Origin: a virus
IMG/VR virus record: IMGVR_UViG_3300042554_001150
Coordinates: 1-34,489 of that record
Length of the DNA: 34,489 nucleotides
Strand: one strand, 5' to 3'
Part shown: positions 4,168-32,196 of the stretch, piece by piece
Position numbering within the stretch: the stretch's first letter is position 1
Layout: every line of letters begins with the position of its first letter
Notes under the pieces: model-generated
Seen by the model: the letters and a program-made list of their open reading frames with translations, nothing else
What the model was told of the DNA's origin: nothing
The model's database searches: none
Position numbers and translations under genes: made by a program

Positions 4168-5233
4168 AATTGAAAACAAAAGAGGTAAGGTAAAGCTCAA
4201 TGAAGTAGTTACCCGTGACGCGGCTGGCAAGATTGCTGAAGAAATCGGCAGGCTTTTTGGTTTTTCCGCGGTTGCTAGTGGGGCAGACTTTGGGGAGATT
4301 ACGAACGTAATTGAAAACGGGGTTGATGTTCTGGATATTGAAATCAACTCACCTGGCGGCAGCGTTTTTGATGGTTACACTATCTATCAAGAAATCAAAA
4401 GCCTACAAGATCGTGGGGTTGTTGTTAATGCGACAATTACTGGCTTGGCAGCATCTATGGCTTCAGTAATTGCTATGGCCTGTGATAATGTTGCAATCGT
4501 GCCACACGGCAGAATGATGATCCATGACGCATCAACTGGAGTCCAAGGCAATGCTGATGAGCTTAGACGGCAAGCAGATTTATTGGATGGAGTATCAGAA
4601 AACATCGCTGAGATTTACGCATATCGCACTAAGAAATCAAAAGAAGCAATCCGTGATCTAATGAAGAAAGAGACATGGATGAACGCAGCACAATGCGTAG
4701 CCGAGGGCTTTGCTGACACCATATTTGACATTGGCAAAAAAACATCTAAAAAAGAACCCATGAATCTATTCAAGAATTTCATTCAGTCACTTAGTTCCGA
4801 TGAGAAAGTTCAATTTGCTGCACAAGTTGCAGAAGTTGAATCGCTTCAATCCGAACTTGCCGAAGCACAAGCTAAAATCGAAGAATTGACCAATGTCTCT
4901 GCCGTAGTGCTGGAGAAAGAGGTTAAGATCCAAGAGTTGTCCGAAAAGAACGGAGAACTGGAAGCCAAAGTTGCCGAAGTTGCAGCTGAAGTTGAAACTC
5001 TGAAAGAAACCATTTCTGCAAAAGAGGCTGAAATCGAAGAAGTTAAAAACTCTGTGGCAGATAAGACCATTGAGGCACTTGCTTCAATCGGTCAATCTGA
5101 ACCACTTGACCTTGACAACAAAGGCGAGCAAAAAACCGTTCTTGAAACCTTTGAATCTCTTAAAGGTGCAGATGCAACCGCATTTTACAAAGCCAACCGC
5201 AAAGCGATTCTGGCTGAGCAATCAAAAAAATAA
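4154..5233 (+). CDS. ClpP/S49-like head maturation protease with scaffold domain
   Basis: Prohead protease fused to a scaffold, as in lambda C/Nu3. Residues 1-195 form a ClpP-type serine protease domain: INSPGGSVFDG (66-74), the nucleophile region GLAASMAS with Ser101, and MMIHDAS with His124. From residue 203 on the protein is scaffold-like: a long Glu/Lys/Ala coiled coil (about 225-310) and an acidic C-terminal part. The protease would act inside the prohead, trimming scaffold and coat and then itself. An in-frame ATG at 4760 (residue 203) lies exactly at the domain border and could start a separate scaffold protein. It sits directly before the major capsid gene. Confidence 0.85.
   Translation: MKTIEIENKRGKVKLNEVVTRDAAGKIAEEIGRLFGFSAVASGADFGEITNVIENGVDVLDIEINSPGGSVFDGYTIYQEIKSLQDRGVVVNATITGLAASMASVIAMACDNVAIVPHGRMMIHDASTGVQGNADELRRQADLLDGVSENIAEIYAYRTKKSKEAIRDLMKKETWMNAAQCVAEGFADTIFDIGKKTSKKEPMNLFKNFIQSLSSDEKVQFAAQVAEVESLQSELAEAQAKIEELTNVSAVVLEKEVKIQELSEKNGELEAKVAEVAAEVETLKETISAKEAEIEEVKNSVADKTIEALASIGQSEPLDLDNKGEQKTVLETFESLKGADATAFYKANRKAILAEQSKK
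4760..5233 (+). CDS. Possible internal-start scaffold protein (Nu3-like)
   Basis: In-frame ATG at residue 203 of the protease gene would give a 157-residue protein (MNLFKNFIQSL...) made almost only of coiled coil. In lambda, the scaffold Nu3 is made from an internal start inside the protease gene C, and the domain border here matches that design. The stretch AAAAAAGAACCC before the ATG holds no clear Shine-Dalgarno sequence, so use of this start is inferred from analogy and not shown. Confidence 0.35.
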   Translation: MNLFKNFIQSLSSDEKVQFAAQVAEVESLQSELAEAQAKIEELTNVSAVVLEKEVKIQELSEKNGELEAKVAEVAAEVETLKETISAKEAEIEEVKNSVADKTIEALASIGQSEPLDLDNKGEQKTVLETFESLKGADATAFYKANRKAILAEQSKK

Positions 5234-7547: not shown

Positions 7548-9731
7548 ATGAGAAATGAAAAATTAACGCTGTCCGTTATTACGGGTAATTGCGAAAAAGA
7601 CGTTGTGCGATTCTTGGATGTATTCCAGCCATTTTTTGATGAAGTGGTAATGGTTCGCGCTATTGGCAATCAAAAACCAGATTCAACTTTGGATATCGCA
7701 AAGGAACGAGGTTGCATAACTGGCGAGTATTTTAACAAAAATAAAGAATGGAATCACGTTGATAACTTTTCAGCAGCTCGCAACGCATCCGCCAAGCTCG
7801 CAACTGGCGATTGGGTAATGTGGGCGGATATGGATGACACCGCAGATGGATTGGAACACTTGCGCGAGATCATTGCAAAACTAGACAAAGATTGTAATAT
7901 TCTGCGTTGTCCTTATGTGGTTAGCGAGCAAGGGGTGATTGCAAACTATCGGGAAAGGGTTTGGAGGAATACAGGCAAGATGGAATGGAAGAACGCATTG
8001 CATGAGAACTTGATTGACACAAGCCAATCAGAATACCCACATGCACAAACAGACAGGATTAAGATTATCCATGTTCCAAGACTTGATCGAGATTGTTCGC
8101 AAGATCGTAATTTGCGGATCTTAGAAAGTATTCCCAAAGACGATCGCACCCATGCTCATACATTTTATTTGATGACGGAATACGCAAGACGTAAGGAAGC
8201 TAAAGCAATAGAACTAGCTCAAGAGTTCCTAAACCATCCAGAAGGTGGGGCAGCTGAACGATTTGAGACGTTTATGACATTGGCAGCAATGGCTGAAAAC
8301 TTCGAGACTAAAGCTCAAATTTACACCCAAGCATTTGCCGAAGATCCAAACCGTGCAGAACCATTGTATGAGCTTGCGGCTTTGTCCTTGTCTTGTGATG
8401 AACCAGAACGTGCATTATCGTTTGCTCGCCACATGATGACGTGCAGATGGCCAGATAATCCGTGCTGGAATCACAGAAAAATGTTTTATGAGTTTTTCCG
8501 TGAGGATTTATTTCTGCAATGTTTGAGATCCGCTGGCAAGGTCTATGAATCTGATGCCCGCAGAATGAACATGAACGCAAAGTCTGGTAAGCCAGTAATT
8601 TCTCTTTTACACGCAACACGGGGCAGATCATCACAAGCTATTAAATGCCGGTCAGAATGGTTGAAATTAGCAAACAACCCAGAAGCCATTGAACATATTT
8701 TTGCCGTAGATTTGGATGATGAACATGCTGAGGTTTTCCATAGATTCCAGACGGTATTCCTTCCATCTGGATCGGGTGGATGCGTGGCGGCATGGAACGC
8801 GGCCGCAGCTATTTGCCGAGGTCAGGTATTGTTGCAGCTAAGTGACGATTGGAAGCCATTTAAAGGATGGGATGATGCTATTCTTGATGCTATTGGCGAC
8901 ACGAAGCAAAAAGCGGTTTTAGCGGTATCTGACGGGCATAGAGAGGATGATTTGCTATGTATGGCAATTATGACCCGTTCACTTTACAAAGAGTGGGGTA
9001 ATATGTTTCATCCAGAGTTTTTCTCAATGTTTTCAGATAATTGGTTTTCCGAGCAGGCTTTCAAAAAAGGCTTGGTTATTGATGCAAGGAGCAAAATCAA
9101 ATTTGAGCATGAGCATCCTGCATTTGGCAAAGCTGAAATGGATGAAACCTATGCAAGATCAAATCAATCTTACAATTACCAATGCGGTTCTGGTATCTTT
9201 GAACGTCTAAAAGCAGGGGTAAAGGTATCCTCTGAAATGGACGGATGGTTTGATTTTAGAGACGTTTATGATTATGTGGCTAAAACCATCCCAAACAATG
9301 GAACATTTGTTGAGGTTGGGACATGGAAAGGTAAAAGTGCAATTTACCTAAAAGATAGGCTAGATGACATCAAGAAGCCTGTGGATTTTTGGGTTGTTGA
9401 TACCTTTAAGGGAGATGATGAAACTGGAAAGGTTAATGTTCTTGAGGAGTTTAAATTGAACCGAGGAGAGCGTGATATTTCCATTATTGAAGGAGACAGT
9501 GCAGAATCGGCAGATAAATTCCAAAACAACACCCTAGACGGGGTTTTCATTGATGCGGCGCATGATTACGCCAGCGCAAAGCGTGACATCAAATCGTGGC
9601 TTCCAAAGGTCAAAGAAGGCGGCTTCTTTGGTGGACATGATGCGGATTCTGAAGGGGTGGCTAAAGCACTTGACGAATTAGGCATTAAATACGCCGTAGT
9701 TGGGCGTTGTTGGATTCAAACCGAAAAATAA
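7548..9731 (+). CDS. Fusion: two glycosyltransferase domains plus SAM methyltransferase
   Basis: A 727-residue enzyme with three catalytic modules. Residues 1-180 are a GT-A/GT2-type domain (LTLSVITGNCEKDVVRFL, metal-binding WADMDD at 92-97, NALHENL). Residues 200-335 are helical and TPR-like. Residues 348-555 look like a second glycosyltransferase (VISLLHATRGR, AVDLDDEHAE, LQLSDDWKPFKGWDD, then SDNWFSEQAF). Residues 565-727 are a class I methyltransferase with the SAM loop FVEVGTWKGKS (587-597), VVDTF (616-620) and FIDAAHDYAS (668-677). It may add and methylate sugars on phage structural proteins or on a host surface polymer; the substrate is unknown. It sits in the accessory block with a second glycosyltransferase. 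Confidence 0.82.
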   Translation: MRNEKLTLSVITGNCEKDVVRFLDVFQPFFDEVVMVRAIGNQKPDSTLDIAKERGCITGEYFNKNKEWNHVDNFSAARNASAKLATGDWVMWADMDDTADGLEHLREIIAKLDKDCNILRCPYVVSEQGVIANYRERVWRNTGKMEWKNALHENLIDTSQSEYPHAQTDRIKIIHVPRLDRDCSQDRNLRILESIPKDDRTHAHTFYLMTEYARRKEAKAIELAQEFLNHPEGGAAERFETFMTLAAMAENFETKAQIYTQAFAEDPNRAEPLYELAALSLSCDEPERALSFARHMMTCRWPDNPCWNHRKMFYEFFREDLFLQCLRSAGKVYESDARRMNMNAKSGKPVISLLHATRGRSSQAIKCRSEWLKLANNPEAIEHIFAVDLDDEHAEVFHRFQTVFLPSGSGGCVAAWNAAAAICRGQVLLQLSDDWKPFKGWDDAILDAIGDTKQKAVLAVSDGHREDDLLCMAIMTRSLYKEWGNMFHPEFFSMFSDNWFSEQAFKKGLVIDARSKIKFEHEHPAFGKAEMDETYARSNQSYNYQCGSGIFERLKAGVKVSSEMDGWFDFRDVYDYVAKTIPNNGTFVEVGTWKGKSAIYLKDRLDDIKKPVDFWVVDTFKGDDETGKVNVLEEFKLNRGERDISIIEGDSAESADKFQNNTLDGVFIDAAHDYASAKRDIKSWLPKVKEGGFFGGHDADSEGVAKALDELGIKYAVVGRCWIQTEK

Positions 9732-24570: not shown

Positions 24571-24812
24571 GCGTCCACACGAATACCAAACAACGTGCCA
24601 TCATGAAGGCTAAGAAATCCGTTTCGCGTATCTTGCCAGCTGGTGGGTTTAACTTCCAGATCCAACATGAGAACGGGTTATTTACCATGCCGTCACCATT
24701 TAAAACAACGCAATCAGTCCGAGCGCAAGCCATGATCGACAAGGCACGCAAAGAACTGGGATTGCCACCAGTTAAATACAATGGTGGATTCTGGCAGGAA
24801 TATTTACAATGA
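24567..24812 (+). CDS. Small basic hypothetical protein
   Basis: 81 residues, overlapping both neighbours by the ATGA pattern. N-terminal basic stretch (KQRAIMKAKKSVSRI), a Gly/Phe segment (PAGGFNFQIQHENGLFTMPSPF), and a helical part RAQAMIDKARKELGLPP. Lies directly before the Mom-like gene with translational coupling, so it may take part in the same process. Function unknown. Confidence 0.5.
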   Translation: MSVHTNTKQRAIMKAKKSVSRILPAGGFNFQIQHENGLFTMPSPFKTTQSVRAQAMIDKARKELGLPPVKYNGGFWQEYLQ

Positions 24813-25417
24813 ATAATTTTTGCGCAGATAATGTAACAGACAGCATGCCGCTTTTCCGAAGCGGTAGTGGCGGTGCAATTCCGACCTCTGCGCTCCAGCT
24901 TCAAATTAGGAAGTGTAACGTTCATTTTGCTTGTAGTTTAAATGCGTTGTGGCACTCCAGATTTCCCAAAATAGATTGGTCAAATGTAGTAAGAAATAAA
25001 GATTACATTTGTTTTGTTGCTGAATACGATGATATAGCTTACGCGACCGCTATTTGGTCAAGTCCTATCGCTGCAAACCGATTATCTGAGGGTAAAACCG
25101 CTTTAGAATTACGCAGGATGGCTATTTGTGATAAAGCACCAACTAATACAGCAAGCAGAATGATTGGGATAATGCGCCGTATAATATCTAAAGAAATGTC
25201 TCATATAACACTTTTGATAAGTTATCAGGATACCGATGTTCATGCTGGGACAATTTACAAAGCAAGTGGATGGAAAGCGGCAGCACAAAATAAAGGAACT
25301 TCTTGGACAAATAAAACAAGAAAACGAAATCAAGAACAAAGCCTATCCGATAAAATCAGATGGGAATACAATATTTACAATGAATACAAAACAAGAAGAA
25401 CTAATGCAGGAGTTTAG
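24809..25417 (+). CDS. Mom-like DNA-modification protein
   Basis: 202 residues of the phage Mu Mom type, a GNAT-fold protein that converts adenine in DNA to an N6-modified form and so protects phage DNA from restriction. Visible family features: LFRSGSGGAIPTSAL (15-29), ALWHSRFP (47-54), ICFVAEYDDIAYATAIWSSPIAANR (67-91), ELRRMAICDKAPTNTASRMIG (100-120), and LISYQDTDVHAGTIYKASGW (136-155), the most typical block. The last 40 residues are basic and may bind DNA. The start overlaps the previous gene by 4 nt and its end overlaps the next by 38 nt. The modification itself is inferred from family membership. Confidence 0.78.
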   Translation: MNNFCADNVTDSMPLFRSGSGGAIPTSALQLQIRKCNVHFACSLNALWHSRFPKIDWSNVVRNKDYICFVAEYDDIAYATAIWSSPIAANRLSEGKTALELRRMAICDKAPTNTASRMIGIMRRIISKEMSHITLLISYQDTDVHAGTIYKASGWKAAAQNKGTSWTNKTRKRNQEQSLSDKIRWEYNIYNEYKTRRTNAGV

Positions 25418-28390: not shown

Positions 28391-28418
28391 TTGCCTTAAT
28401 CGCGGGGTGTGGTAGATT
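28391..28418 (+). promoter_or_regulatory. Promoter candidate ahead of the structured element
   Basis: TTGCCT (28391-28396), 16-bp spacer, TAGATT (28413-28418). A transcript from here would begin near 28425 and carry the whole RNA fold. Confidence 0.45.
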
Positions 28419-28424
28419 GAAAAC

Positions 28425-28572
28425 GTTGACTAGATCAACTCCGTTTAGAAGCGGAAAATAATGATGAAAACCAAAACTAAACAGCCTCCTGTCCTGCTTG
28501 CTAAGCCGCTTCAATGCGGATCACGTATTCATCGCGTGACTTCTAACTTAGCAGCAGGACAGGGGGTTTTTT
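28425..28572 (+). ncRNA. Candidate structured RNA with terminator, upstream of HNH gene
   Basis: The sequence folds into: an upstream hairpin GTTGA/TCAAC (28425-28439); a long closing stem P1 with 28485-28505 pairing to 28547-28566 (20 pairs, one G-T, one bulged T); inside it P2 CCGC/GCGG (28506-28519) and P3 TCACG/CGTGA (28521-28539), a three-way junction. P1 is followed at once by six T, as in a terminator. The single-stranded junction CTTCTAA (28540-28546) is complementary to TTAGAAG (28445-28451) upstream, and CCGCTTC of P2 to GAAGCGG (28448-28454), so a pseudoknot or switch is possible. Not a tRNA: no anticodon-like or T-arm elements. Confidence 0.65.
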
Positions 28573-28586
28573 CGTTATTTGTATGA
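28464..28586 (+). CDS. Possible 40-residue leader peptide inside the RNA element
   Basis: MKTKTKQPPVLLAKPLQCGSRI... runs through the RNA fold to TGA 28584-28586, overlapping the HNH start by ATGA. The overlap is the usual coupling pattern in this genome, but the codons are fixed by the long stem, so the frame may be open by chance. If translated, it could act as a leader peptide that controls the fold. Confidence 0.3.
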   Translation: MKTKTKQPPVLLAKPLQCGSRIHRVTSNLAAGQGVFSLFV

Positions 28587-29047
28587 ATATTCATAAAGTA
28601 GATTATATAAACATTAGGGTTAAAATTAATGATTTAGTTCAAGATTTATCCAAAGATATATATGAAGAAAGGGAGATAAATAGAACCATAAAACTGGCCA
28701 GAGAATCTCAAAATACAATCAATAATCAAATTTCTTATCATTTTGAGACAATAAGGATCTTAAATACTCAAAAAGAAAAAACCGAAAGGGCGTTAGAACA
28801 ACTATTTTTGCAAATTGAAAAATCTTACAGGGAAAGAAGGAAAGACGAAAATTATAAAATATCAAAAACGCTAGTGAGACACATGATTTTCCAAAGGGAT
28901 GGCAATAAATGCAAAAATTGCAACACTACGTCAAATTTAACAATAGATCACATTATACCAGTAAAACATGGAGGGACGAGTGAAGATACTAACCTGCAAA
29001 CCCTTTGTAGAAAATGCAACTCATCGAAAGGAGCTAAGATTTTATGA
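28583..29047 (+). CDS. HNH endonuclease with N-terminal coiled coil
   Basis: 154 residues. The C-terminal 50 residues form an HNH nuclease: zinc pairs CKNC (110-113) and CRKC (142-145), the catalytic block LTIDHIIPVKHGGTSEDTNLQTLC with Asp122-His123 and Asn137, and a final Asn146. Residues 15-85 are a charged helical/coiled-coil region of unknown role. The gene is clearly more AT-rich than its neighbours (AAA, ATA, AAT codons), a sign of recent arrival, yet it overlaps the next gene by 4 nt. It could be a homing-type nuclease or part of a two-component element with the RNA fold just upstream. Confidence 0.85.
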   Translation: MNIHKVDYINIRVKINDLVQDLSKDIYEEREINRTIKLARESQNTINNQISYHFETIRILNTQKEKTERALEQLFLQIEKSYRERRKDENYKISKTLVRHMIFQRDGNKCKNCNTTSNLTIDHIIPVKHGGTSEDTNLQTLCRKCNSSKGAKIL

Positions 29048-29895
29048 ACCACTTTGAACTAGAACCATTTCCGCAGTCTGGAATTAACCTGCATATACTT
29101 TCATGTGCCAGGAAATGTCAATTACACGGACTAAGCGAGGGAGAAGCAGAAAGCAGAATCATGGCGTTTCAAGGCACTACTAGACGACCTTTAAAGTCTA
29201 GCGAGGTCAAGAGAGCTATTAGCCGAGCGTATTCAACTGATTACAAGCCGACACACGTTAAACCGCCGAAGCAGGAATGGCAGCCATCCAAGACTAGGCA
29301 GACAACCTACCGCAAGAAAACCAAAGGGATCACGCCTTATGACCTATGGGAGATGTCACCGATGCGTATTGATGATGGACTAACTCAAAAGATGATTCTT
29401 GAAATGCTCTTTCCAGATCCAAACGGTTTAGTTTGTGTTGGCAAGTCGGCTTTTGAGTTCCACACCGCACGGCTGAATCAATTCAAAGACTTGAGCCAAT
29501 GCCAGTTTATTGTGGCCGCATACATGACTAAGCCTAAAGGAATCACCCAAGACGGCAAGGAATCAATGCATTGCTTGGATAACTGCGGAGAAAGGCGATA
29601 TTTCGTTTGTGACTTTGACGAGCCAAAGAGCGCGGATCATCCAGCTATTATCATGCAATTAAAGCGAACGTTTGATTTGGTTATGGTATTGAGCAGCGGA
29701 GGCAAATCACTTCACGCTTGGTTCAATGTCCAGCCAGACGAGGAAGAATCATTCTGGCAATCCGCAATCGAATACGGGGCAGATCCAGCACTAATGAGAA
29801 ACCGCTCGTCATTTGTTCGGCTGCCGTTTGGAAAACGCGATAACGGCAAAACCCAACAAGTGTTTTATTTTGACTATACTAAATTGAAAGATTGA
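29044..29895 (+). CDS. Primase of the archaeo-eukaryotic type
   Basis: 283 residues. The catalytic core lies in the second half: YFVCDFDEPKSADHP with the DxD pair (Asp190/Asp192), VLSSGGKSLHAWF (the sxH motif, near residue 217-227), and SFVRLPFG (257-263). The N-terminal 90 residues are helical and basic with a Pro/Lys-rich linker and may bind DNA. Together with the initiator and DnaB helicase that follow, it supplies priming for phage replication. No zinc ribbon or helicase fusion is visible. Confidence 0.75.
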   Translation: MNHFELEPFPQSGINLHILSCARKCQLHGLSEGEAESRIMAFQGTTRRPLKSSEVKRAISRAYSTDYKPTHVKPPKQEWQPSKTRQTTYRKKTKGITPYDLWEMSPMRIDDGLTQKMILEMLFPDPNGLVCVGKSAFEFHTARLNQFKDLSQCQFIVAAYMTKPKGITQDGKESMHCLDNCGERRYFVCDFDEPKSADHPAIIMQLKRTFDLVMVLSSGGKSLHAWFNVQPDEEESFWQSAIEYGADPALMRNRSSFVRLPFGKRDNGKTQQVFYFDYTKLKD

Positions 29896-29966: not shown

Positions 29967-30929
29967 ATGTATGCAAAACTCTTCTCAAGGATAGCACAGT
30001 CCTCTTTAATGGAGGAAGACGTGAAAACTAGATATATTTTTATGATGCTCCTAGCACTTGCCGATTCTCACGGGGATGTCATTGGAACAGATGTGGCAAT
30101 AGCCCGTATGATGAACATATCTAAAAATGAATTTGTGGAGGGGGCGCAAAGGTTAATGCAGCCAGATGCAGACAGCAACTCTCCTGCATATGATGGGCGC
30201 AGAATCATACTTAGCGAGGCAGGAAGGGGCTATAAATTGGTTAATTATCTCAATTATCGAGCTATTAAATCTGACGATGAAAAGCGTGAATATATGAGGG
30301 AATATATGAAAAAACGCAGAGCAAGTAGCAGACAATTAGAGGAAAATGTAAAATCTGTTAAACTCTGTAAATATCAGTTAACCGATGTAACACATACAGA
30401 AGCAGAAGCAGATACAGAGGAATATAATAATAAACTACTTATGTCCGTTAGCACGGACGAGAGTAATTCTGAAAATCCGCTTATGCCATTATGGAAAACA
30501 TTTAATTCAAAATCCCGCGAAAGATCATCACTCAAACAACTCGAAGCGGAATGGAAGAAAACACAAGACAAGCCAGATATAGCTGGGTTAATAGAATCGG
30601 TAAAGATTTGGAATGACTCAAGCGAATGGATAAAGAAGAATAGGCAGTTTTCACCTGGCGCACATTTATTCATTAAGAACCGCAAATGGGAAACTACACC
30701 CGAAAAGGCTAAACCAGAGGATTTAGGAAAAAGGTCAACACATGAGATATTCAAACCACTTGACCAAAACGCCCCCACTAGTGGCAAAAGAGACACCCAT
30801 GAAGTTTTCCGAGATGAAGCGGGGAACATACTAAACGGAACAGGACGCAGATCAATACACGAAACATTTACGGATGACGGTAATGGAACAGTCCAGAACG
30901 GCAGAAGATCAACCACAGAATATATTTAA
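29967..30929 (+). CDS. Replication initiator / helicase loader candidate
   Basis: 320 residues. Residues 1-115 resemble the winged-helix part of phage replisome organisers (RYIFMMLLALADSHGDVIGTDVAIARMMNISKNEF, then GYKLVNYLNYRAIKSDDEKREYMREYMKKRR). Residues 170-245 form a helical unit (FNSKSRERSSLKQLEAEWKK). From residue 254 four degenerate repeats G(K/R)RSTHEIF follow at 254, 273, 293 and 312, each about 19-20 residues apart (GKRDTHEVF, GRRSIHETF, GRRSTTEYI). The repeats are unusual for this class and may bind the helicase. It lies 4 nt ahead of the DnaB gene, the usual loader position. Confidence 0.6.
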   Translation: MYAKLFSRIAQSSLMEEDVKTRYIFMMLLALADSHGDVIGTDVAIARMMNISKNEFVEGAQRLMQPDADSNSPAYDGRRIILSEAGRGYKLVNYLNYRAIKSDDEKREYMREYMKKRRASSRQLEENVKSVKLCKYQLTDVTHTEAEADTEEYNNKLLMSVSTDESNSENPLMPLWKTFNSKSRERSSLKQLEAEWKKTQDKPDIAGLIESVKIWNDSSEWIKKNRQFSPGAHLFIKNRKWETTPEKAKPEDLGKRSTHEIFKPLDQNAPTSGKRDTHEVFRDEAGNILNGTGRRSIHETFTDDGNGTVQNGRRSTTEYI

Positions 30930-30933
30930 AATT

Positions 30934-32196
30934 ATGACCCAAGAACCAAAACAAATTGAAATGCCAACAGCTCCAGATGCCGAGGCCGCATTACTAATCT
31001 GCCTAATCGAAAACCCTCAAAGATTTGGCAAGCTATTACTGGCATCCAATATCAATGCTGATTATTACTCTAGTCCCTCCAATGCTGAGATGCTGAGGAT
31101 TATCACGCAGCGACTAAAAGACCAGTTGCCGCTTGATCCAACCAGTATTAAAGAGCAAATCAGAGGTAAAAAGCACGAGCCTTTAAGCATTGCTCATCTT
31201 ACCTCAATTTTATCCACCGAATACTCCGAGGAAGGGTGGGAAGGGTATGTTGCAGTTATCCGAGAGGCAAAGGCTAAGAGGACGCTTTTAGAGGCATCTA
31301 CGGCATCTTTAGAGATGTCTGGGGAGGAGGCTTTATCCGCGCTCAGAAAGGCTCACAAAGATGCACAAAACGAGTTACAGGGATCAAGTGAGGTTCAGAC
31401 AGCGAAGGAAGCTGTAAAGGCTTTTGTTAAAGCCATGAGAGAGCGTTCTGAATTAGGTTCATCAGCAGGATTAAAAACGGGGGTTGAACAAATTGACACC
31501 CACACAGGCGGGATGCGTAAGGGAGAATTATGGGTTGTAGGGGCTAAAACAAGCGGAGGTAAATCAATTCTCATGCTACAAATGGCAACTGAAGCGATAT
31601 TAGCGGGAAAGCGAGTATTAATATTTAGCCTGGAACTTGGATCTGATGAGATTATTAACCGCATGATTTCTTTTCAAGCAAGGGTCAGCATGGGTGAATT
31701 AACTGGGGTAAAGCCATATCTAGTGAACAGCACCTTGAAAATAAAAGCCCAAGCAGATGAGTTAGCAAAATTAAACTTTTCCATTTGCGATACAGCCAAC
31801 ATGACAATGGATCAAATCGAAGGGCATTGCATCAGAGAATATGAGACAAACGGACTCGACTTGGTTATAATCGACTATTTACAGCAAATAAGCACACCCA
31901 AGATAAAAGGTCAAAACAGGGAACAAGAGGTTGCAAACATATCAAGATCATGTAAGCAACTGGCAAAGCGAGTTAAATGCCCTGTATTAACAGCTACTCA
32001 GTTAAATGACAATGGACAAGCCAGAGAGAGCCGAGCAATCGAACATGATTCAGATAATATCTTGATTGTTGAAAACATACCAGATGGCAGAACTGAGCTT
32101 GTATTCTGGAAATGCCGTAACGGAGAAAGAGGCAAATCATTTGAGGCAAGGTTAAATGGTGAATTCCAGCGATTCGACTTCAACCCGCGATATTAA
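30934..32196 (+). CDS. dnaB: DnaB-type replicative helicase
   Basis: 420 residues from ATG 30934. N-terminal DnaB domain (APDAEAALLICLIENPQRFGKLL), then the RecA-like motor: Walker A GAKTSGGKS (203-211), IFSLELGSDEI with the conserved Glu, Walker B LVIIDYLQQ (310-318), TATQLND, and the arginine-finger region FWKCRNGERG. Length is close to bacterial DnaB (about 450-470). The protein unwinds DNA ahead of the fork in concert with the upstream initiator and primase. Its last codons run into the first iteron-like repeat. Confidence 0.93.
   Translation: MTQEPKQIEMPTAPDAEAALLICLIENPQRFGKLLLASNINADYYSSPSNAEMLRIITQRLKDQLPLDPTSIKEQIRGKKHEPLSIAHLTSILSTEYSEEGWEGYVAVIREAKAKRTLLEASTASLEMSGEEALSALRKAHKDAQNELQGSSEVQTAKEAVKAFVKAMRERSELGSSAGLKTGVEQIDTHTGGMRKGELWVVGAKTSGGKSILMLQMATEAILAGKRVLIFSLELGSDEIINRMISFQARVSMGELTGVKPYLVNSTLKIKAQADELAKLNFSICDTANMTMDQIEGHCIREYETNGLDLVIIDYLQQISTPKIKGQNREQEVANISRSCKQLAKRVKCPVLTATQLNDNGQARESRAIEHDSDNILIVENIPDGRTELVFWKCRNGERGKSFEARLNGEFQRFDFNPRY

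Follow-up and report, generated by a model that had tools for sequence, protein, structure and literature searches.

A conserved phage RNA fold that appears to hide a leader start codon and could switch replication genes on and off

In an uncultured phage, a highly structured RNA lies directly 5′ of an HNH endonuclease gene. Does this RNA belong to the nuclease, or does it serve the replication genes that lie beyond? The stretch of DNA analyzed here (the window) is a phage record of 34,489 bases. Its left part carries genes for terminase, portal, protease and tape measure, and its right part those for an exonuclease and for replication. The RNA element is placed between short ORFs and a run of genes on the same plus strand: the HNH gene (28583–29047, 154 aa, Pfam HNH 9.7e-13), a conserved replication-region gene (29044–29895, 283 aa), a gene resembling those of replication initiation proteins (29967–30929; a weak match to phrog_9474, 5e-4, in the position of the relatives' initiators) and a DnaB-like replicative helicase gene (30874–32196; phrog_19 1.4e-76, Pfam DnaB_C 3.4e-46). 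The protein of the 29044 gene had no Pfam or PHROG match; by eye it resembles a primase type. A sequence-only reading of the locus had described a promoter-like pair, an upstream hairpin, a three-way junction, a stem of about 20 bp, a U-tract and an HNH start codon at 28583, all of which are present in the sequence. Its remark that the HNH gene is AT-rich also agrees with the composition (29.9% GC, compared with 43.4% for the whole window).

The element contains a 5′ hairpin (28425–28439, plus strand as for all other features of the element; GUUGA-CUAGA-UCAAC); most relatives have a short hairpin with a GNRA tetraloop in its place (e.g., GUC-GCAA-GAC, GCC-GCAA-GGC or GUC-GAAA-GAC). Hairpin P0 (28440–28455, CCG-UUUAGAAG-CGG) follows; by inspection, most P0 loops start with YUNR, the U-turn motif of RNA-RNA recognition loops. 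The closing stem P1 (28484–28566), which would double as the terminator stem, pairs 28484–28505 with 28547–28566 over about 20 bp. Within it lie hairpin P2 (28506–28519, CCGC-UUCAAU-GCGG), with counterparts in all members; hairpin P3 (28521–28539, UCACG-UAUUCAUCG-CGUGA), an extra that is specific to the window; and the linker CUUCUAA (28540–28546). A U-tract (28567–28572), present in the sequence of all members, completes a predicted intrinsic terminator after P1. The 200-nt region folded at −72.1 kcal/mol; shuffled versions averaged −46.6 (z −6.7, 0/200 shuffles).

We searched with the protein of the 29044 gene and obtained L012 and L013 as first relatives. In both, the corresponding position holds a hairpin followed by an AUG, AAACAGCCUC, a long stem that encloses a further hairpin, a GGGG-U-tract and then an ORF. 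The pattern AAACAGCCTC...GGGGTTTTTT resulted in nine viral loci, all true members when checked by eye. Looser patterns gave further members, yet most of their matches were ordinary terminators. L160 and L167 were recruited by their proteins and by a covariance model without pseudoknots, and a pattern derived from those two yielded L263 and L268/L272. Together, these pattern, covariance and protein searches located the element in about 20 records of related uncultured phages. Of these, 19 are clearly distinct and formed the set of members for statistics. Each record holds a single copy in the sense orientation (20/20). Only 3 of the 80 best DnaB relatives carry the element, which is therefore confined to a narrow set of phages. 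At gathering score, Rfam 15 returned nothing but tRNA in the window and ten relatives, and sub-threshold scans of the window, L018 and L059 gave chance-level matches only. DNA queries against cultured phages and plasmids had no match, nor did the 29044 protein against cultured phage records, and no description of the RNA was found in the literature searched, the coverage of which was partial. The RNA family appears to be unlisted so far.

An RNAalifold model of the first 15 members consisted of P0 and P1. Two-sided changes occurred in 13 of its 20 pairs, including 10 of the 16 within P1, and 93% of cells in the modelled pairs were paired, compared with 35–62% in slid controls (0/500 shuffles). 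An invariant U.G pair within P1 (15/15 members) fits an RNA rather than a DNA cruciform. In L160, L167, L263 and L268/L272, U takes the place of the G of AAACAG, and the base that pairs with it ahead of the U-tract is A; a pair that hardly varies elsewhere has thus changed in a compensatory way. Invariant columns are largely AAACA[G]CCUC, GGGG and the U-tract; loops and linkers vary freely while still pairing. The sequence-only reading had named covariance in other phages beforehand as its check, and compensatory changes proved abundant among the relatives. The fold is real and conserved, and this is well supported.

Covariation also extends outside P1, to two pseudoknots. In PK1, the P0 loop pairs with the linker that separates P2 from P1′; in the window these are TTAGAAG (28445–28451) and CTTCTAA (28540–28546), an exact complementarity that the sequence-only reading had pointed out and that covaries in the relatives (e.g., UUGAGAC/GUCUCAA, UGCAAC/GUUGCA, UAGAAAC/GUUUCUA, UAGUAA/UUACUA and UUAGAAG/CUUCUAA). 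PK2, which that reading had not described, joins the P2 loop of the relatives to the region of a leader AUG; the window uses its P3 loop instead (28528–28534) as the 3′ side. Examples of PK2 helices are GCAUGA/UCAUGC, GAAUGAAA/UUUCAUUC, GAUGCAG/UUGCAUC, UUUACCG/CGGUAAA and AACAC/GUGUU. Across the 19 members, with segments set by hand, PK1 formed 12 distinct helices (z 8.5) and PK2 formed 17 (z 7.8), each with 0/20,000 permutations; as permutation removes relatedness incompletely, the counts of distinct helices are the stronger argument. The permutation result was unchanged for both after near relatives were thinned out, and four members recruited with a search model free of pseudoknots obey PK1 and PK2 alike. 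In 13 of 19 members, PK2 lies across the AUG, at positions −3 to +5; it is weak or lies away from the AUG in L059 (5 bp), L160 and L167. The switch that had been suggested between GAAGCGG of the P0 3′ strand and CCGCTTC of the P2 5′ strand fared less well. This pairing exists in the window, but in relatives it rises only weakly above permuted partners (z 2.3, 317/20,000), since both stems usually have CCG/CGG. We rejected this alternative fold as not specifically conserved.

The AUG that PK2 covers opens a reading frame that runs through the whole fold, a feature that likewise went beyond the sequence-only reading. In the window, the AUG is at 28464 or, in frame, at 28461 (leader AUG region 28461–28468), within the 5′ side of PK2 (UGAUGAA, 28462–28468), and the predicted leader ORF (28464–28586, 40 codons, MKTKTKQPPVLLAKPLQCGSRIHRVTSNLAAGQGVFSLFV) ends in a stop that overlaps the HNH start as ATGA (28583–28586). 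An AUG stands 12–16 nt 5′ of AAACA[G/U]CC in 19/19 members, and it is kept even where the PK2 partner has no CAU (L013, L021, L042 and L065). The leader frame is open across the entire fold in 19/19 members; with the AUG itself left out of the count (ATGA gives TGA in the +1 frame), stops interrupt 22 of the 38 alternative frames (Fisher 7e-6). If the AUG could fall in any frame with equal probability, it would open on a stop-free one in every member with a chance of about 2e-5. Relative to the conserved letters, the leader frame is 0, 1 or 2 depending on the member (2 in L160), so the peptide is not conserved and being translated seems to be. A conserved leader peptide, which KQPP suggested at first sight, was rejected on these differing frames. 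The conserved regulatory codons of classical attenuators were not found among the 19 members, in which peptide and frame vary; the short ORF ahead of the candidate regulated genes, overlapping the regulatory structure, is what a leader-peptide attenuator would have. About ten members, including the window, end the leader ORF with AUGA on the next start, in about six it shares the frame of the next gene, and in the rest it overlaps the next gene or ends just before it. This relation is no more than suggestive. Conservation extends to nucleotides, the AUG and an open frame and not to the peptide or its reading frame, which makes 'translation for its own sake' testable.

We propose that the element is, on balance, probably a cis-acting leader RNA of the phage replication operon, in which translation of the leader ORF competes with a fold that occludes the start codon and forms a terminator. 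Transcription would start about 40–50 nt 5′ of the leader AUG. A promoter-like site (28391–28418) has TTGCCT at 28391–28396, a 16-nt spacer and TAGATT at 28413–28418; this consensus match was chosen by position and analogy, the top match of a promoter scan in the window being a different pair. The best −10-like hexamer is 44–51 nt 5′ of the leader AUG in about half of the 19 members, and the mean best score in relatives was 8.1, compared with 6.9 (sd 0.8) at random places; in several members, the match is missing or shifted. If undisturbed, the nascent RNA would form P0 first and then P1 and P2, the P0 loop would dock on the linker after P2, the P2 loop would pair with the region of the leader start codon, and P1 with its U-tract would end transcription, leaving a compact RNA of about 130–150 nt with its AUG hidden. 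If a ribosome reached the AUG first, translation would carry it across P1, P2 and the linker; this would prevent both pseudoknots and the terminator from forming, and RNA polymerase would continue. The balance might be set by ribosome supply, by a host or phage protein or by an antisense RNA. The ORF spans P1, P2 and the 3′ strands of both pseudoknots, so these two states are expected to be sterically exclusive. On reaching the stop on or near the next AUG, often as AUGA, the ribosome could re-initiate, or give an N-terminal fusion where the frames agree. The regulated output would then be the replication genes. A point against this reading is that a terminator alone could respond to translation, without two pseudoknots.

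The leader has no Shine-Dalgarno (SD) motif, which is normal in the window, where an SD-like motif stands at only 2 of 36 plausible gene starts; occlusion of the AUG is accordingly a plausible block to initiation. Pairing on the start codon suggests a way to shut a leader in phages that do without SD motifs. More broadly, a structured RNA that appears to be unlisted, and in which two pseudoknots covary, sits at a control point of phage DNA replication.

Known systems offer likenesses in kind, and we claim membership in none of them. Replication of IncI-complex plasmids is controlled by a pseudoknot that acts as a switch and by an antisense RNA from the same locus. The phage leader shares with IncI control a leader ORF, a pseudoknot and a position before the replication initiator gene; it differs in its two pseudoknots, one of which covers the AUG of the leader, and in a terminator that lies within the leader ORF. 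In these plasmids, translation of a leader peptide (repY/repB) is required for that of the replication initiator (repZ/repA) (PMC10286972), and a title cited there, Asano & Mizobuchi 1998, names an RNA pseudoknot as a molecular switch in IncI-complex replication control. The B12 riboswitch of ppe2 in Mycobacterium tuberculosis is similar in its structured leader, uORF and AUGA overlap: translation of the uORF is essential for the next gene, by termination-reinitiation at the overlap without an SD (PMC11260477). It differs in having a cobalamin aptamer with a conserved core, whereas the phage fold has no conserved core of this kind and itself contains the ORF and terminator.

Instead of a leader, the element could be a stand-alone phage small RNA acting in trans, with its own promoter and terminator, loops directed at host or phage targets and an ORF that is a by-product. 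We consider this possible though unlikely. The self-contained run from promoter-like site to terminator, the 5′ hairpin at the expected start, the one copy per phage and the persistence of the RNA while the first downstream gene changes all agree with it; such an RNA, however, needs neither an AUG with an open frame (19/19, in varied frames) nor an ORF that ends on the next start, and the place at the head of the replication genes is kept. Action in cis and in trans are compatible: once terminated, the RNA might also act on further copies, as happens in plasmid copy-number systems. One such extension, which we think very unlikely, is a phage counterpart of plasmid copy-number RNAs. A terminated RNA of about 140 nt would accumulate and use its variable P0 and P2 loops to pair in trans with leaders of its own type; it would set when replication takes place or at what level, and would exclude co-infecting phages whose loops are the same. 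If so, the specificity of exclusion would reside in the many different loop pairs, each matched within its own RNA.

A ligand-sensing riboswitch that controls transcription of the replication operon through the terminator is also quite unlikely. A pseudoknotted fold joined to a terminator ahead of an operon is what one would expect of it, but a conserved unpaired ligand-binding core was not found: the invariant letters are largely the P1 base with the U-tract and AAACA, and loops and linkers that vary this freely are unlike a binding pocket. This scarcity of conserved unpaired letters makes a metabolite riboswitch less likely, and no Rfam riboswitch matched. In the Pistol ribozyme, a 5′ hairpin loop is pseudoknotted with a downstream linker, much as in PK1; the order of hairpin and pseudoknot strands is reversed, however, and Pistol had no Rfam match at E ≤ 1 in the sub-threshold scans. 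An origin or primer RNA, with a transcript or structure that primes phage DNA replication or marks its start, would suitably adjoin the initiator and helicase genes from upstream; we hold it highly improbable, as the open frame and AUG would be without a role and P1 is followed by a terminator U-tract.

As for the nuclease neighbor, the RNA heads replication genes, a third point beyond the sequence-only reading, and the first gene after it is exchangeable. HNH-type genes of unrelated families follow the RNA in L013, L016, L020 and L263 (by Pfam or PHROGs; L016 below the Pfam cut-off) and, on weaker evidence, in L012, L021 and L087. By eye, the next ORFs of both L012 and L013 are HNH-type and unlike the HNH of the window, with clear PHROGs support in L013 only. 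Next genes named by eye as ParB-like or helicase/methyltransferase-like occur in L017, L018 and L042, and small unknown ORFs in L014 and L019. A replication gene comes directly after the RNA in L056 (initiator, phrog_16167 2.7e-40) and L167 (DnaD-like loader, 3e-20) and, judged by position, in L059, L064 and L272. Near-identical RNAs (L017, L018, L022, L081 and L105) precede different genes, and the ten proteins most closely related to the window's HNH come without such an RNA. With an exchangeable next gene and HNH relatives that have no RNA, the nuclease is best seen as a passenger at a hot spot after the terminator, and such a hot spot for HNH and other passengers explains the misleading neighbor. 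The riboswitch-like attenuator of the nuclease that had been suggested comes close to our favored reading, given abundant compensatory changes and a U-tract in every member, and loses the HNH gene as its target because the next gene varies.

An HNH-linked RNA, whether a guide of the IscB/omegaRNA kind or part of a mobile RNA-nuclease unit as the sequence-only reading had offered, is hardly tenable. HNH-type genes do adjoin the RNA in several members, but their types differ and five members (L056, L059, L064, L167 and L272) have none directly 3′ of it. HEARO and the IscB omegaRNA share with the element a place beside an HNH gene; there, the RNA is stably linked to a RuvC-HNH IscB, whereas here RNA without HNH and HNH without RNA both occur and Rfam gave no match. 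The protein is, as had been judged, not IscB, being 154 aa long with HNH only and no RuvC. A strong intrinsic terminator and nothing else, which the GC-rich stem and U-tract would provide, is scarcely conceivable, as two covarying pseudoknots, a conserved AUG and an open frame would be superfluous and the chance terminators caught by the same pattern have none of these.

L162, a close relative by its 29044 gene, has at the same genome position (4590–4735) a different and larger hairpin array with a U-tract, ending in CCGGGCGGGATTTTTG. It adjoins a similar HNH gene, the covariance model gives no match there, and the array is possibly a diverged or replaced leader.

The near-absence of SD motifs among the window's genes suggests a host with SD-independent initiation. 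Among 388 Verrucomicrobiota genomes, one gave a strong match, on a phage-like contig of 59 kb that had been binned into a Verrucomicrobia MAG (L109 / G019:C89), where the element matches that of L020. Because this sole strong genome match is a phage-like contig binned into a MAG, host assignment is uncertain, and a Verrucomicrobia host is a weak hint. A second, weak match (L159) resembles a plain terminator and was rejected. The L109 contig also encodes Bet-like recombinase, sigma-factor-like and Mom-like genes. In the window, a tRNA-Gly (tcc) at 24821–24893 overlaps the ORF start of a Mom-like DNA modification protein (24809–25417), and a 727-aa protein (7548–9731) matches two glycosyltransferase families and then a DNA methyltransferase family, an unusual fusion.
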